DNA of 64,000 bases, taken from NCBI GenBank assembly GCA_001770015.1, contig MEQB01000064.1, positions 62,001 through 126,000 of the forward strand, in the 5' to 3' direction. Under the pieces are notes generated by a model. That model ran no database searches. It was given only the letters and a program-made list of their open reading frames with translations, and had not been told where the DNA came from. This document shows positions 36,801 to 52,075 of the stretch, piece after piece; position 1 is the first letter of the stretch, and the number at the start of each line of letters is the position of its first letter. This DNA comes from Bdellovibrionales bacterium RIFOXYC1_FULL_37_79 (GTDB taxonomy: Bacteria; Bdellovibrionota; Bacteriovoracia; Bacteriovoracales; Bacteriovoracaceae). A program made the position numbers and the translations under genes.

Positions 36801-37970
36801 ATGTATGCAAGAATAGCGAACCTGTTAAAGTCACATCACTTTTTTTTATTTGGAGCACGTGGTACTGGAAAAACCACTTATTTAGACAATCTTTTTTTAA
36901 ATCAAAAGAATTGTTTAAAAATTGATCTTTTGGATTGGGAGTTAGAAGAGAGATACGCCAAAGGTTCCAGTCTTTTAATCGAAGAAATTGAATCAAAGAA
37001 AGAAATAAAATATGTAATTATTGACGAAATTCAAAAAATCCCAAAGCTTCTTGATACCATCCATCAATATATTCAAAAAAATAAAAATAAAAAGATATTT
37101 ATCCTCACTGGTTCTAGCGCTAAAAAATTAAAACACGGTGGAGGAAATTTACTGGCAGGACGTGCCTTCGTCTATTATTTATTCCCTCTCACCTTCTTGG
37201 AGCTGGGAACTGATTTTCGCTTGGATACTTACTTGCAAATGGGAGGATTGCCCGAAGTTTATTCGTTTAATAATAATAAAATAATGCAATTAAAATTTCT
37301 TAAAACATATTCACATACCTACCTAAAGGAAGAAATTTGGGCCGAACATTTTATAAAAAACCTTGATCCTTTCAGAAAATTTTTAGAGCTGGCAGCCGCT
37401 GCCAACGGAGAAATTATCAACTATTCAAAAATGGCCAGGCAAATTGGCGTTGATACCAAGACTGTCCAATCATATTTTCAATTATTAGAAGAAACTTTGA
37501 TCGCATTTATTATAGAACCATTTTCGACTTCAATTCGTAAAAGATTAATAAAATCCTCTAAATTTTATTTTTTTGACTTAGGCGTAAAGCGGGCGCTTGA
37601 ACAAACTCTCTCGATTGAGTTATTGCCTCAAACCTTTGCTTATGGAAAGGCCTTTGAACATTTTATTATCACCCAGATTATTTATTTAATTCATTACCTA
37701 GAAAATGATTTTTCCCTCTATTATCTAAAAACCGAGGCCGGAGTTGAAATTGATCTCATCCTACAGAAACCCAGCAGGGAGCTCCTCTTGATTGAAATTA
37801 AATCCACCAAAGAAGTGATGAATGAGGACATTAAAAGTCTTTGTGAAATACATGCCGATTTACCAAAATCCAAGGCATATCTACTTTCTCTCGATAAAAT
37901 TTCTAGAAAAATTAAAACTGTTCATTGTTTACATTGGCAAGAAGGAATTAAAAAGATTTTAAATTGTTAG
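36801..37970 (+). CDS. ATP-binding protein, AAA_14 plus DUF4143
   Basis: Stand-alone P-loop ATPase of a patchily distributed family of unknown function. Walker A is FGARGTGKTTYLDN (residues 18-31), Walker B is YVIIDEIQKIP near residue 75, and sensor LTGSSAKKLK follows. The C-terminal half is DUF4143: a winged-helix-like segment (ARQIGVDTKTVQSYFQLLEE) and a PD-(D/E)xK-like tail (EAGVEIDLIL...LLIEIKSTK). It is the first gene of the accessory patch after uvrA. There is no usable ribosome binding site. Confidence 0.85.
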   Translation: MYARIANLLKSHHFFLFGARGTGKTTYLDNLFLNQKNCLKIDLLDWELEERYAKGSSLLIEEIESKKEIKYVIIDEIQKIPKLLDTIHQYIQKNKNKKIFILTGSSAKKLKHGGGNLLAGRAFVYYLFPLTFLELGTDFRLDTYLQMGGLPEVYSFNNNKIMQLKFLKTYSHTYLKEEIWAEHFIKNLDPFRKFLELAAAANGEIINYSKMARQIGVDTKTVQSYFQLLEETLIAFIIEPFSTSIRKRLIKSSKFYFFDLGVKRALEQTLSIELLPQTFAYGKAFEHFIITQIIYLIHYLENDFSLYYLKTEAGVEIDLILQKPSRELLLIEIKSTKEVMNEDIKSLCEIHADLPKSKAYLLSLDKISRKIKTVHCLHWQEGIKKILNC

Positions 37971-38151
37971 TCTTTCCTACAGAGTATCTCCGTTTATAAC
38001 ATTGCGCTGGAATTTTTGTTTTTTCTAATGTCAATTGAAATTGACTGAAAGTTTTTTAGTTCGGGTGTTATTTCACATAAAAGTTAGTTAAGATAAATCA
38101 AGAAATTAAGTATTCATTGAATTGGTCTTACCTCTTGGTGAAAATCTCGAA
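37971..38151. other. Convergent intergenic gap, nothing recognised
   Basis: AT-rich 181 bases between two convergent genes. I see no clear terminator hairpin, RNA gene or open frame. Confidence 0.5.
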
Positions 38152-39012
38152 CTAGCCTTTACTTTTCTTTTTAGTTTTTGACTTAAGCGCTTTCTTGGTT
38201 GAAGTTGGAAGATAACTTTCACTTGTTACAACTTTTTTTCCTGTGTTCTTTTCTAGTTCAATTTTTGCTTTTTTTGCAATACCACCACCGATCTTGGAAG
38301 CCACTTTGTTTTCTTCCATTCCTACTGCGTTGCTTGTTTCTGCAATTTGTCTTGTTGAAAGTTCCGCAAGTGCTGTAAAGATTAGCTCTGCCTCATTCAT
38401 GTGATCTCTAAGATTTTGAATCTTCAGTCCTTTTAACTTCTCGTGTTGTTTTATTGAAACATCGGCCCACTCTTCATGAATAAGATTAGTGAGAATGGCA
38501 TATTCTTCTTCTTTTTTTATATCATGATCTTTCCAATAATCCGTGAGCTTATTTCTGGTTTCTTGTCCCATCATACGCTGCTGTATCCACTTCTCACTTC
38601 GTCCATGTTTTTGCCAAAATTCTCTAGCTCGATCTACTGAACGAGCAGGATCAGCAATATCTTGCATACGTTCATATCCAACTTTAGCAAGCCATAATTT
38701 GATAGGCTCGGCCTTTGGACTTGGAACTGATTGAATTAAACGTAAAAGAGTCTCTGCATCTGCAACATCGGTAAGATATTTTTTTCCATCAGAAGCTTCT
38801 AATTTCAGTCGGTGACAACTTGTCACCGACTGACTTCCTTCCTTATTAAGACGTTCCTTTAGCTTATTCCAATATTTTCTTGCTGTTTGGTAATTGGATT
38901 GGTCTACAAGGACTTGGACAATATCTATAATTGAAAAATACCATTTTTCAGTTCGCTCATCATAGATTCTACGAATTTTATAATTTTCAAAAACGGCCAA
39001 TGAATTTTGCAT
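38152..39012 (-). CDS. Bro-N / DinD-like protein
   Basis: N-terminal Bro-N (antirepressor) fold, residues ~5-110: RRIYDERTEKWYFSIIDIVQVL, then TARKYWNKLKERL. The C-terminal part matches DinD-like proteins: YAILTNLIHEEW, KGLKIQNLRDHMNEAELIFTALAE, and a late ENTGKKVVTSESYLP. It ends in a Lys/Ser/Thr-rich tail. DinD of E. coli is SOS-induced and inhibits RecA. A -35/-10 pair TTGTCT...TTAAAT and AAGGAG lie upstream. Phage- or damage-related origin is likely. Confidence 0.72.
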   Translation of the reverse strand: MQNSLAVFENYKIRRIYDERTEKWYFSIIDIVQVLVDQSNYQTARKYWNKLKERLNKEGSQSVTSCHRLKLEASDGKKYLTDVADAETLLRLIQSVPSPKAEPIKLWLAKVGYERMQDIADPARSVDRAREFWQKHGRSEKWIQQRMMGQETRNKLTDYWKDHDIKKEEEYAILTNLIHEEWADVSIKQHEKLKGLKIQNLRDHMNEAELIFTALAELSTRQIAETSNAVGMEENKVASKIGGGIAKKAKIELEKNTGKKVVTSESYLPTSTKKALKSKTKKKSKG

Positions 39013-40990: not shown

Positions 40991-41650
40991 TTATAAGGGG
41001 CTTATACCTTCTTTGATTGCAAAGCGGATCAGCTGGGCAACAGAAGTGATTTTTAATTTTTCCATGATTTGTAAACGATGAGATTCTACAGTTTTAGGGC
41101 TGACATTTAACTGGTGGGCGATTTCTTTGGTGGAGAGTCCATCTGCGATTAATTTTAAGATCTCGCTTTCTCTGGGAGTTAAGCTGGACGCATTGGTTTC
41201 GCACTTTTGAGAAGGATTTTGTAAGTTTAAATATTCTTGGATGACCAGATCATTAATGGTTGAGCTTAAAAAGATTCTATTATCAAGTACGGTTTTAATG
41301 GCAAGTATTAGTTCTTCAAAGGCACATTCTTTAAGAATGTAGCCATCGGCGCAGACCTTCAGTGCAGATAAAACAAAATGTTTTTCCTTATGCATGGATA
41401 AGATTAAAATTTTGGTATTAGGGTAGTCTTTTTTTATCATTTGGGTTGCTAAAAGTCCGTCCATTGGTCCCATTGAGATATCTATGATGGCAAGATCAAT
41501 ACAATTATTTTCAAAAAGTTTAAGTAATTCATTTCCGTTTTGGGCCTCACCAACGATCGTCAGGGTTTTTGATTTTTTCTCAATCAGCGAGCGAAGTCCA
41601 TCTCGGACAATTTTATGATCATCGGCAATGGCAATATTTATTTTCCTCAT
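40991..41650 (-). CDS. NarL/FixJ-type response regulator
   Basis: Receiver domain (~1-120): DDHKIVRDGL, phosphoacceptor Asp in LAIIDISMGPMDG, LSMHKE, and the conserved Lys in GYILKE. The C-terminal LuxR helix-turn-helix LTPRESEILKLIADGLSTKEIAHQLNVSPKTVESH... is intact. The start overlaps the kinase stop (ATGA). Likely targets are unknown, but amtB lies directly downstream. Confidence 0.9.
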   Translation of the reverse strand: MRKINIAIADDHKIVRDGLRSLIEKKSKTLTIVGEAQNGNELLKLFENNCIDLAIIDISMGPMDGLLATQMIKKDYPNTKILILSMHKEKHFVLSALKVCADGYILKECAFEELILAIKTVLDNRIFLSSTINDLVIQEYLNLQNPSQKCETNASSLTPRESEILKLIADGLSTKEIAHQLNVSPKTVESHRLQIMEKLKITSVAQLIRFAIKEGISPL

Positions 41651-42288
41651 CGTGGGTGCTCGCTTGGATCAAGAGGAATTTCTATACTGATCAAGGTTCC
41701 TTTTGGTTGTGGTTTGATTAAAAAATGACCATTTAGACAGTTAATTCTTTCCATAACACTCATAAGGCCAAAACCAAAATTTTGATTTGGTTTTATGCCA
41801 ATGCCATTGTCTTCTATTTTTATTATTAATGCCCTGTCGTTAAACATAAAACGGATAGAAGCCATGGAAGCTTTCGAATGTTTTACGATATTGATGAGTA
41901 GCTCACTAATGGAGCGGTAAAGATAAATGCGTTGGTTTTCTCCCAGGTCTGGGATTTTATCATGATCAAAGTTAATCTTTAGGCTGTGGCGTAGTTGTAA
42001 ATTTTCGATAAGGTTTTCGATTGCCACGCCAAGACCAAATTTATGCAAGGTCATGGGACTCAATTCGGTGACCATGTCACGGGAGTATTTTATGCATTTT
42101 TCGGTTAAAGATAGTGCATAATTTATTTCTCCATCCAGTCCGCAAAAGACAGCATTCCCTTGTATTTTTTTTAAAGTAAGTCTGATCATGGCCAATGCTT
42201 GACCCAAATGATCATGGAGGTTTTCGGCCAGTTCCTTTTTATTTTTTTCTTCAATTATAAAGAGATCATTCACTTTGAGATCTTTCAC
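41647..42288 (-). CDS. Soluble NarX-type histidine kinase, no sensor domain
   Basis: Only the transmitter is present (213 residues): HisKA_3 with ELAENLHDHLGQALAMIRLTL (phospho-acceptor His) and a HATPase with N-box ELLINIVKHSKAS and G-boxes DNGIGI and GFGLMSVMERI. No membrane helix or input domain. Sensing must come from a partner or from a short N-terminus. Start GTG 42288 with AAGGAT. Coupled to the response regulator. Confidence 0.87.
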   Translation of the reverse strand: MKDLKVNDLFIIEEKNKKELAENLHDHLGQALAMIRLTLKKIQGNAVFCGLDGEINYALSLTEKCIKYSRDMVTELSPMTLHKFGLGVAIENLIENLQLRHSLKINFDHDKIPDLGENQRIYLYRSISELLINIVKHSKASMASIRFMFNDRALIIKIEDNGIGIKPNQNFGFGLMSVMERINCLNGHFLIKPQPKGTLISIEIPLDPSEHPR

Positions 42289-42562: not shown

Positions 42563-44995
42563 ATGATGAAGGTTAAAATTATTTACTGGGGCTTGTTTAT
42601 TTTTACTTTTTTATTTTTAACCGGTTGTTTTGAAAGCGGAGTGAAGGCCAAAAATTCCAAATCCAGCTCTCAACTTACCAGCACCGATGATACCAATCAT
42701 GTTGATAATACTGACACATCGACGGGTACATGTACCGTTGGGCAAAGTGAGCAAGTTGATTGCACCAATGAAAAATATGGGGCAGCCAAGGCAACCATGT
42801 TAAAAAACTGTGTTGATACCAGTAATGGGCCTATGCTTATATCGGGATCGTGTTTGATTGATTCGTGTGTTTCTGGAAGCGTGTTAATTAATAATTATTG
42901 CGTGGTTAACACGTGTGCTGGTGGTAGCGCTCAATCGTGCGCAATTCAAAACGGATCAGGAATTCAAAGTCGAACTTGTGCAAGCGGCGTGTGGTCCGAT
43001 TGGGGAGCTTGTACGGTTCAAAGTTGCAATACAGGCTATGTGCCATCAGCTAATACCTGCGTTTTGTCAGGTTGCACAGGGGCAACAAATCAGGCGTGTT
43101 CAGTGGCAAATGGAATTGGCAGTCAAAGTAGGACGTGTAACAATGGAGCTTGGTCAGCCTGGGGAGCTTGTGTGGCTCAAAGTTGTAATACAGGTTATCG
43201 GTTGGAAAATAATACTTGTCTGACCAATGTGTGTACGGGAAGTACCTCGCAAGCTTGCGGGGTAACAAATGGAGTTGGAATTCAAAATAGGACTTGCACT
43301 AATGGGGTGTGGTCGGCGTTTGGTAGCTGTACGGTTACAAGTTGTAATCAAGGTTATCATTTGGAAAATAATAAGTGTCTTACCAACGTATGTACAGGAA
43401 GTACCTCGCAAGCTTGCGGGATAACAAATGGAGTTGGAATTCAAAATAGAACTTGCACTAACGGAGTTTGGTCGGCGTTTGGTGGCTGCCTGGTTAGTAG
43501 TTGTAATTCCGGTTATGTAAAGTCAGGAAACACATGTACTCCAACGGTGTGTTCCGGACTTTCCACTCAGTCATGCACGGTGACCAATGGGATCGGGGGG
43601 CAGGCGAGAACGTGTAATTTGGGAGTGTGGTCAGCCTGGGGAGCTTGTACGGTTCAAAGTTGTAATCAAGGTTATCGTTTGGAAAATAATGCGTGTGTGT
43701 TACCGACTTGTGCTGGGGAAAATACTCAGGTGTGTGGAGTGCAAAACGGGATGGGGCATCAGATACGAACATGCAATAATGGAACTTGGTCAGCCTGGGG
43801 AGCTTGTATTGCCCAAACTTGTAACCAGGGCTACCAGCTGGTGGGGGGACTTTGTAGCGCCATGGTTTGCATCGGCGATGCCACCAGGGCCTGTAGTGAA
43901 AACCACGGCAGTGGAATGCAAACCAGAGAGTGCAGTTTGGGTGTGTGGAGTAATTGGGGAACATGTGCCATCAGCTCATGTGATGCCGGATATAGATTTG
44001 AAAATAATGTTTGTATTTTGAATGTTTGTGAAGGTGATAGTGCCAGAACATGTACCGTCAGTAACGGAACTGGGGTGCAAAGTAGAACGTGCACTAATGG
44101 TGTGTGGTCGGCATATAGCTCTTGCAAGGCTTCCTTTTGTAATAGTGGATATGTGGTGCAAAATGGTATTTGTGTGGCGGTTGAGTGTGTGGGCAATAGT
44201 GCTTTTGCCTGTTATGTTGAAAATGGGATAGGTGTTCAAACTAGGTATTGTAATCTTGGGCAGTGGAGTGATTACGGTGATTGTACAGCGACTAGTTGTA
44301 ATAATGGTTTTAGTTTGGTAGCTAATTCCTGCAGGCCAACTACATGTGGAGGAATTTCATCGCGTTCTTGTAGTGCCACTAATGGAATTGGAATTCAAAG
44401 TAGAACTTGTAATAATGGTGTGTGGTCCGCATATGGAGTTTGTAAAGCGGTTAAGTGTAATAGTAATGCCGAACTTATCAATGGTAGTTGTGTAATTAAG
44501 ACCTGTCTGGAAAGTAATACCCAAAGTTGCTCGGATTCAACAGGATCTGGTATTCAAGTGAGGAGTTGCACGAATGGAATCTGGGGACCTTACGGGGAAT
44601 GTTTAAAAGAGAAATGTGTTGCAGGCTATGAGGTTAAAAATCAGCAATGTGTTCCTGTTACTTGTCAAAATCTATCAACTCAAATGTGTTCGGTAGAAAA
44701 TGGAACTGGAATGCAAAAACATTTTTGTCAAAACGGAGTCTGGTCCAGTTGGGGACCGTGCGTATTAAAAGAGTGTGCAGGAGTTAATAATACAGATTAT
44801 TTAATGGACGTAACCAACAATAGATGCATTTGTTCGGTTTATGCGACTCAAAGTTGTACAGGTGTTCATGGTAGCGGGATTAGAACGCGTTCCTGTCAAA
44901 ATAATGTATGGAGCGCTTATTCAGTTTGCCAGCTGTACTACTGTGAATCTGGTTATACGCTGAATGCGGCCAATAACACTTGTGATCCCAATTAA
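42563..44995 (+). CDS. Lipoprotein with 13 six-cysteine repeats
   Basis: Probable surface-exposed lipoprotein, 810 residues. The signal ends in the lipobox LTGC (Cys 20), then a Ser/Thr/Asp linker to about residue 50 and a degenerate Cys-rich leader. Thirteen repeats of ~53 residues follow to the C-terminus. Consensus: CxG...Q.C...NGxGxQxRTC.NGxWSxWGxC...SCNxGY....N.C, six Cys each. The RTC...WSxWGxC part recalls thrombospondin type 1 segments, but the order differs. Role unknown; adhesion is a guess. A shared terminator follows. Confidence 0.82.
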   Translation: MMKVKIIYWGLFIFTFLFLTGCFESGVKAKNSKSSSQLTSTDDTNHVDNTDTSTGTCTVGQSEQVDCTNEKYGAAKATMLKNCVDTSNGPMLISGSCLIDSCVSGSVLINNYCVVNTCAGGSAQSCAIQNGSGIQSRTCASGVWSDWGACTVQSCNTGYVPSANTCVLSGCTGATNQACSVANGIGSQSRTCNNGAWSAWGACVAQSCNTGYRLENNTCLTNVCTGSTSQACGVTNGVGIQNRTCTNGVWSAFGSCTVTSCNQGYHLENNKCLTNVCTGSTSQACGITNGVGIQNRTCTNGVWSAFGGCLVSSCNSGYVKSGNTCTPTVCSGLSTQSCTVTNGIGGQARTCNLGVWSAWGACTVQSCNQGYRLENNACVLPTCAGENTQVCGVQNGMGHQIRTCNNGTWSAWGACIAQTCNQGYQLVGGLCSAMVCIGDATRACSENHGSGMQTRECSLGVWSNWGTCAISSCDAGYRFENNVCILNVCEGDSARTCTVSNGTGVQSRTCTNGVWSAYSSCKASFCNSGYVVQNGICVAVECVGNSAFACYVENGIGVQTRYCNLGQWSDYGDCTATSCNNGFSLVANSCRPTTCGGISSRSCSATNGIGIQSRTCNNGVWSAYGVCKAVKCNSNAELINGSCVIKTCLESNTQSCSDSTGSGIQVRSCTNGIWGPYGECLKEKCVAGYEVKNQQCVPVTCQNLSTQMCSVENGTGMQKHFCQNGVWSSWGPCVLKECAGVNNTDYLMDVTNNRCICSVYATQSCTGVHGSGIRTRSCQNNVWSAYSVCQLYYCESGYTLNAANNTCDPN
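42914..44992 (+). repeat. Tandem coding repeat, 13 copies of about 159 bases
   Basis: Copies start about every 159 bases (for example 42914, 43232, 43391), each encoding one six-Cys module. Copies 3 and 4 are nearly identical at the DNA level over ~100 bases, showing recent duplication; the last three are the most diverged. Confidence 0.85.
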
Positions 44996-45007: not shown

Positions 45008-45036
45008 GGCCACTGGTTTAACAGTGGCCATCTTTT
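45008..45036. terminator. Bidirectional terminator between repeat lipoprotein and hppA
   Basis: GGCCACTG (45008-45015), loop GTTTAA, CAGTGGCC (45022-45029), with seven A on the left and TCTTTTTT on the right, so it works in both directions for the convergent genes. Confidence 0.88.
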
Positions 45037-50857: not shown

Positions 50858-52075
50858 TTGATTAATCGAAAATGGGCAATTCCACTTATCGGGGTGAATG
50901 TTTTGGCTTTGTTGGATTCTCTTTATCTGACATGGCATCACTATCAGATGGAAATTGCCAGACCGATCACAAGTAGCTTTTGTACAATTAATTCTTTTAT
51001 TGATTGTGATTCGGTGGCGCTTAGTTCTTATGCCCGATTTTTAGGAATGCCGGCAGCCGGGCTTGGAGTTTTTGCTTATCTGTTTTTATTGGGTCTGTTT
51101 ATTCATTTATTTTATTTTAAGAAAACAGACGTCAGCAGGGATTTGAATCTTTCCTTTATCGTGCTTCTGGTGATGCTGCTATTTTCTCTTAGACAGTTTT
51201 TAGCTTCCCTTATCTTTGTCAAAGCGGTTTGCATCATGTGCATAGGATTATATGTCTGTATAATTCTGATGGCCATTTTTAACTATCAACTGCTCCTTAA
51301 GATAGATTACAAGGAAGGGCTGAAAAAATTAGTTGAGATTTTAAAGTTTGCGCATATTAGGGAGAGCCTGGTTTATCTTTTAATGGTGTTTTTTTGCATT
51401 ATTATTTCTACGGCGGTTTGTCTTTTATTTAAAACTCATTTTGAATCGGAGGTTTTGCCACCAGAGCAATCAGCTAATCAGGAAAAAGGGATTTTGGAGA
51501 TCTATAACGAATTGCCATCGCAAGCGATTGACTTTAAAAATCTACCATTTAAAGGGGCAGAGGATGCACCATTTGTTTTTTTGGAAGTTAGTGATTTTGA
51601 GTGTCCATTTTGTTCCTTAAGGGGAGCCATTTTACTGCGGTTAATGCGCCATTTTGAAGGGCTGGTGAAAATATATTTTTTAAATTTCCCGCTTGATGAT
51701 AAATGTAACCGCACGATCAAGGATAAATTTCATAACAATGCATGTCTGTCAGCAAAGTATGCTATTTGTGCAGACCAAGAAGGTAAATTTTGGCCATATC
51801 ATGATTATTTATTCAAGCATCAAAAACAAATTTCCAAGGAGTGGCTGCACAGTTCAATTAAACATTTCAATTTTAATCAGGAAAAATTCGCAGCATGTTT
51901 GAAGGATTATGCTTCTGATAAGTTAAATCAAGAGTTGGAGCGAGGTTATCAACTCAATATCACTTATACGCCGACTATTTTTCTAAATAATAAAAAAATT
52001 TCCGATCTGGTCCAAAGAGAGGAGGATATTATTGCCCTGTTAGAGAGCATCATGAAGGCTTCGTTGGAGAAATAA
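50858..52075 (+). CDS. VKOR-DsbA fusion, disulfide-forming membrane protein
   Basis: Makes protein disulfides in the periplasm. The N-terminal vitamin K epoxide reductase domain (~1-150) has four to five helices, the paired Cys in SFCTINSFIDCDSV and the active CIMC (VCIMCIGLY). A further helix near residue 175 leads to a DsbA-like thioredoxin domain (~225-400) with FECPFCSLRG (CPFC) and cis-Pro TYTPTIF. Start TTG 50858 after AGGGAGGAG. The fusion replaces a DsbA/DsbB pair. Confidence 0.9.
   Translation: MINRKWAIPLIGVNVLALLDSLYLTWHHYQMEIARPITSSFCTINSFIDCDSVALSSYARFLGMPAAGLGVFAYLFLLGLFIHLFYFKKTDVSRDLNLSFIVLLVMLLFSLRQFLASLIFVKAVCIMCIGLYVCIILMAIFNYQLLLKIDYKEGLKKLVEILKFAHIRESLVYLLMVFFCIIISTAVCLLFKTHFESEVLPPEQSANQEKGILEIYNELPSQAIDFKNLPFKGAEDAPFVFLEVSDFECPFCSLRGAILLRLMRHFEGLVKIYFLNFPLDDKCNRTIKDKFHNNACLSAKYAICADQEGKFWPYHDYLFKHQKQISKEWLHSSIKHFNFNQEKFAACLKDYASDKLNQELERGYQLNITYTPTIFLNNKKISDLVQREEDIIALLESIMKASLEK

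Follow-up and report, generated by a model that had tools for sequence, protein, structure and literature searches.

Results

A lipid-anchored protein of repeated six-cysteine modules

In the window, by which we mean the whole stretch of 64,000 nucleotides that was analysed, an open reading frame of 810 codons runs from 42563 to 44995 on the forward strand and encodes a protein of 810 amino acids with the N-terminus MMKVKIIYWGLFIFTFLFLTGC and 85 cysteines. The hydrophobic signal followed by a lipobox cysteine that marks bacterial lipoproteins is found in LFIFTFLFLTGC, with Cys22 as the predicted site of lipidation. The protein ends with module 13 and a C-terminal domain is absent. Module boundaries were set by cutting the array at the first cysteine of the module, C1. 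The features of the locus are as follows.

42563..42628, forward strand: type II (lipoprotein) signal peptide with lipobox LTGC and putative lipid-modified Cys22, read from the sequence
42629..42730, forward strand: Ser/Thr/Asp/Asn-rich linker, amino acids 23-56, from the translation
42731..42913, forward strand: decayed module 0, amino acids 57-117, with cysteines at 57, 67, 83, 97, 102 and 113
42914..44662, forward strand: modules 1-11, 53 amino acids each, C-x7-C-x12-C-x10-C-x4-C-x10-C-x4
44663..44830, forward strand: module 12, 56 amino acids, with a six-residue insertion between C5 and C6 that shifts C6
44831..44992, forward strand: module 13, 54 amino acids, cut at C1, the end of the protein
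45008..45029, no strand assigned: stem resembling a terminator, with tails rich in T on each strand, shared with the convergent pyrophosphatase gene (two found against 2.1 expected by chance)
50858..52075, forward strand: VKOR-DsbA fusion, a general disulfide-forming enzyme, 5.9 kb downstream of the lipoprotein gene

From Cys118 the cysteines follow one another at intervals of 8, 13, 11, 5, 11 and 5 through the array, with one disturbance close to the C-terminus. The initial annotation had described an 810-residue lipoprotein with 13 six-cysteine modules of about 53 residues; the reading frame, the LTGC lipobox and the near-perfect spacing of the 13 modules (7-12-10-4-10-4) confirm this description, and the length is exact for modules 1-11 but not for modules 12 and 13. 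Likewise, the count of 13 holds for the intact modules but overlooked the decayed module 0, whose second half is weakly matched by the module profile (amino acids 92-115 in one search, E 2.99 in another).

The consensus of the module is CxGxxxQxCxVxNGxGxQxRTCxNGVWSAxGxCxxxSCNxGYxLxNNxC, and the six cysteines, G-x-G and the tryptophan are in register in all 13 modules. Pairs of modules are 32-75% identical as protein and differ by 22-56% as DNA, with dN/dS values of 0.13-0.48 in nine pairs and a saturated dS in the tenth. Despite this divergence of the DNA, the low dN/dS indicates that the module pattern is kept by selection, and register, spacing, pair identity and dN/dS together exclude a chance origin of the array. 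Judged from its translation, the protein is lipid-anchored and made almost wholly of 13 small disulfide-stapled modules and one decayed one.

Gene neighbourhood

A histidine kinase/response regulator pair is transcribed divergently from the lipoprotein gene, and an H+-pyrophosphatase gene convergently with it. A search of 39 related genomes at E <= 1e-25 did not recover a relative of the kinase of the two-component pair (40991-42288), and thus no conserved neighbourhood linking the pair to the lipoprotein gene could be demonstrated. Elsewhere in the window, at 36801-39012, there are an AAA_14/DUF4143 ATPase and, next after it but on the opposite strand, a Bro-N protein. The VKOR-DsbA fusion, which had been put forward as a supplier of disulfides to the array, is real but unspecific: VKOR is present in 33 of the 39 relatives, nearly all of which are without the 810-amino-acid lipoprotein, and there are three VKOR loci in the window's own genome (window 50858-52072, C67:22605 and C42:79383), most related genomes having one. 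A specific pairing with the lipoprotein was therefore rejected, as the enzyme can serve any exported protein.

Searches of catalogued families

The whole protein gave a single Pfam match, cEGF, which is below threshold (22.4 bits against a cut-off of 26.6), and no match to Sushi (PF00084) at E <= 10. In NCBIfam no family was obtained at E <= 10, and hence the repeat of myxobacterial TraA (TIGR04201) is not matched. When 49 modules were scanned singly, scattered weak matches were returned, including TSP_1 and TSP1_spondin, none above cut-off, and cEGF was weakly matched by 10 of them. For the thrombospondin type 1 (TSP1) profiles, module 2 scored 12.3 bits against 21.6 (TSP_1, PF00090) and 14.6 against 41 (TSP1_spondin, PF19028). 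A profile search of PDB sequences brought up TSP1 of F-spondin (E 0.003-0.007) and complement control proteins (E 0.004 and above), each match being confined to a short segment at WSxxxxC and CNxGY. The module, proposed earlier to be of no catalogued class, indeed reaches the threshold of no Pfam or NCBIfam family; the confident match to a catalogued repeat that was looked for in both was not obtained, and the profile searches place it as a member of a widespread but uncatalogued family.

Module types and relatives

Type A modules, of 53 amino acids, have both R20 and W27; type B modules (about 50 amino acids) keep the six cysteines and miss both R20 and W27, and type C modules (about 42 amino acids) have four cysteines. 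A profile search with the module, which the initial annotation had suggested, covered 369 genomes of the phylum from 182 genera; it was positive in 27 of these genomes and in 21 of the genera. Most of the relatives are lipoproteins with 1-10 recognisable modules each. Of the 29 other reading frames with modules, 20 have lipobox-like N-termini, and several of those that do not are without an N-terminus. In many relatives the lipobox has the form FQNC, which may point to Bdellovibrionota. A close full-length homologue of the window protein was not found among 59 related genomes.

The module-bearing relatives contain a variety of other domains: a thermolysin-type (M4) peptidase (L012), a BD-FAE esterase (L031), a right-handed beta-helix (L020), and TIG (L025), Ig_3 (L006) and RCC1 (L035) domains, with Ig-like and lethal-factor-like matches below cut-off in L010, L014 and L018. 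In the window's own genome, a lipoprotein (L002:1306-3861) has one type A module, then four near-identical divergent six-cysteine repeats (CNSGYKLSNNQC) and then a calcineurin-like phosphoesterase (Metallophos) domain. The same genome has, at L003:1345-2886, a Cys-rich repeat type (SQTQTRTCNNGVWGNWSGTYTFLNC and variants) in which TRTCNNGVWxxW is repeated, related but of a different kind, and which is joined to a domain without a Pfam name. This C-terminal domain is common to L003 and L013 (26% over 367 amino acids including the repeats, E 3e-27), despite the different type of their repeats, and going by the alignment this arrangement is the behaviour of interchangeable stalks. The domain contents suggest that related bacteria mostly employ the module as a spacer that carries enzymes or other domains, which agrees with the disulfide-stapled modular stalk proposed initially, since relatives carry the modules beside catalytic or binding domains.

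No relatives were found in IMG/VR, and a viral origin is not supported. A scan of genome contigs yielded only two distant loci, from one delta-proteobacterial bin, although its patterns are narrow and the distribution is not bounded by it. These loci, L039 and L040, have CGTQxRTCxNGxWGxWSxC repeats, which in L039 adjoin subtilase, fn3 and Lcl_C domains, and, lying outside the phylum, may be more loosely related to the module. Searches of the literature for repeats of this sort in Bdellovibrio or in predatory bacteria gave nothing on the module; the Bdellovibrio adhesins treated in the papers found, MAT fibres and MIDAS proteins (PMC10769870, PMC11003981), are of other types than the module array.

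Probable disulfide pairing deduced from cysteine loss

Raw scoring of the modules gave 76 with both C1 and C3 and 21 with both missing. Six modules scored as having C1 only (L006, L032) were re-read, their cysteine being assigned in our own reading to an unrecognised unit before them, as its C6, and in the one module with C3 only the upstream sequence is masked with N. With these corrections, 76 modules have both cysteines, 27 have neither and none is discordant. At the level of proteins, C1 and C3 are both missing in six (or five, counting the homologous L020 and L024 as one) and both present in about 21. In addition, stand-alone C1-C4 units without C5-C6 occur in L005 and L014, and stand-alone C5-C6 hairpins in L017 (amino acids 250, 400 and 551) and L032 (amino acid 153). 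Because C1 and C3 are lost jointly and because C1-C4 units and C5-C6 hairpins each exist without the other, the simplest and most likely pairing is C1-C3, C2-C4 and C5-C6, in which C2-C4 follows by elimination.

The 85 cysteines in 810 residues could also suggest a metal-binding or redox-buffer protein with reduced cysteines. However, the protein would be exported to an oxidising compartment, CxxC and CxC motifs are missing in modules 1-11, and relatives lose their cysteines in pairs; we consider such a function extremely improbable, and on the grounds of export and paired loss a metal-binding protein was rejected.

Predicted structure

AlphaFold2 (AF2) was run on adjacent modules, as the initial annotation had advised. 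Modules 2-4 were predicted with a pLDDT of 94.7 and a pTM of 0.51 (34 alignment rows) and a single module with a pLDDT of 93.0 and a pTM of 0.62 (49 alignment rows). Both models are all-beta, with a hairpin around C2, a short hairpin in the C3-C4 segment and three strands in the region of C5-C6. Given the low pTM of the three-module model, the module-to-module geometry, and hence the rod shape, is not settled by AF2. Foldseek searches of the PDB with one and three modules gave no match at E <= 0.001, including to solved EGF domains, and a search of viral models with one module gave nothing significant. Small Cys-rich domains, here of 53 residues, are hard for Foldseek, so that the missing match is weak evidence for a new fold.

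Comparison with known extracellular modules

The pairing deduced for the module would be the disulfide plan of EGF, which is 1-3, 2-4, 5-6 (PMC6096484). A likeness to EGF is C5-x2-G-Y/F before C6, with C5-x2-G-aromatic at the exact spacing in 11 of the 13 window modules, along with the weak cEGF signal. On the other hand, no EGF family is above cut-off and no fold match was obtained, C4 and C5 of the module are four residues apart, the C3-C4 loop is rich in tryptophan, and in the AF2 models the main hairpin is placed around C2, before C3.

The local NGxWSxWGxC stretch, the GxGxQxR motif and the weak F-spondin match recall TSP1, as had been remarked earlier, but in the module GxGxQxR stands before WxxW and not after it. 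The disulfides of TSP1 are 1-5, 2-6, 3-4 in group 1 and 1-4, 2-5, 3-6 in group 2 (PMC6096484); in a cyclic TSP1 numbering the C1-C3 bond of the module would be 4-6, present in neither plan. TSP1 membership was therefore rejected based on the implied pairing, the motif order and the sub-cut-off score: the common WSxWGxC stretch stands, whereas kinship as such is not supported, and by the motif comparison the resemblance is a local one.

Sushi/CCP modules have C1-C3 and C2-C4 bonds and a conserved tryptophan (PMC10518620), a plan that the module would share together with weak profile matches, but the module is shorter between C1 and C3, has an extra C5-C6 hairpin, and the window protein has no Sushi match above cut-off. 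TraA (PMC3325183), a protein of the cell surface, likewise has tandem repeats rich in cysteine, which were proposed to form a rigid stalk; however, a PA14 domain and a MYXO-CTERM sorting tag are present in TraA, whereas the window protein has a lipobox and no head, and matches no NCBIfam model.

Discussion

We think it rather likely that the gene product is a secreted, lipid-anchored and disulfide-stiffened rod on the cell envelope, the pure-stalk member of a family of spacers. The type II signal peptide would take the protein across the inner membrane and Cys22 would be lipidated, and a short flexible linker would lead to the 13 modules and the decayed one. Each module would fold independently into a small all-beta unit with three disulfides, most likely paired as above and made by periplasmic VKOR-DsbA enzymes, and the head-to-tail joining of the modules by about 4 residues would give a spacer that is stiff and resists proteases. 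Relatives have the same modules as a link between a lipid anchor and enzymes or other domains. The window protein carries no cargo on its array, which makes up the whole protein; a structural stalk or coat on the envelope is therefore its probable role, and any binding would be done by the modules themselves. The rod shape and the surface location are what we infer for the array.

The location could be different, in that the protein may face the periplasm as a spacer or load-bearing element inside the envelope. Only a lipobox was seen, with no sign in the sequence of transfer to the outer leaflet, but the extended array would probably be longer than the width of a typical periplasm, and the peptidase and esterase domains of relatives are more usual for work outside. 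A periplasmic role is thus quite improbable.

The absence of a cargo domain, unlike in most relatives, would also suit a binding role. The array itself may be an adhesin, whose repeated modules would bind multivalently to the glycans or proteins of other cells or of a matrix, the 13 copies raising avidity. By analogy, TSP1 and Sushi arrays in animals bind multivalently, and by profile the modules weakly resemble the binding modules found in F-spondin and in complement control proteins. Tryptophan, arginine and tyrosine residues are conserved, 28 modules having both R20 and W27, 3 having W27 without R20 and none having R20 without W27, although these counts are confounded by descent and the conserved arginine and tryptophan may be merely the core of the module. 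Relatives place the modules beside enzymes, no conserved ligand site is seen apart from structural residues, and the charge of the modules varies from -2 to +4. We regard the adhesin as possible but unlikely, and favour the structural stalk.

A more far-reaching proposal, which we hold to be doubtful, is that the modules are an unnamed bacterial extracellular domain family with disulfides paired as in EGF, a W-R core resembling that of TSP1 and Sushi and a fold as yet absent from the PDB, serving as a phylum-wide mix-and-match stalk, of which the window protein would be a pure-stalk adhesive rod for cell contact. The module is found in lipoproteins with many enzymes and binding domains in at least 21 genera of one phylum, and since no Pfam or NCBIfam entry matches it, the proteins that bear it are unlabelled as a class. 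The pattern of cysteine loss yields a disulfide map that can be tested, and with the confident AF2 models ligands can be sought on the basis of structure. As a contact stalk, if it is one, the array would be a new type of adhesive rod on bacterial surfaces.
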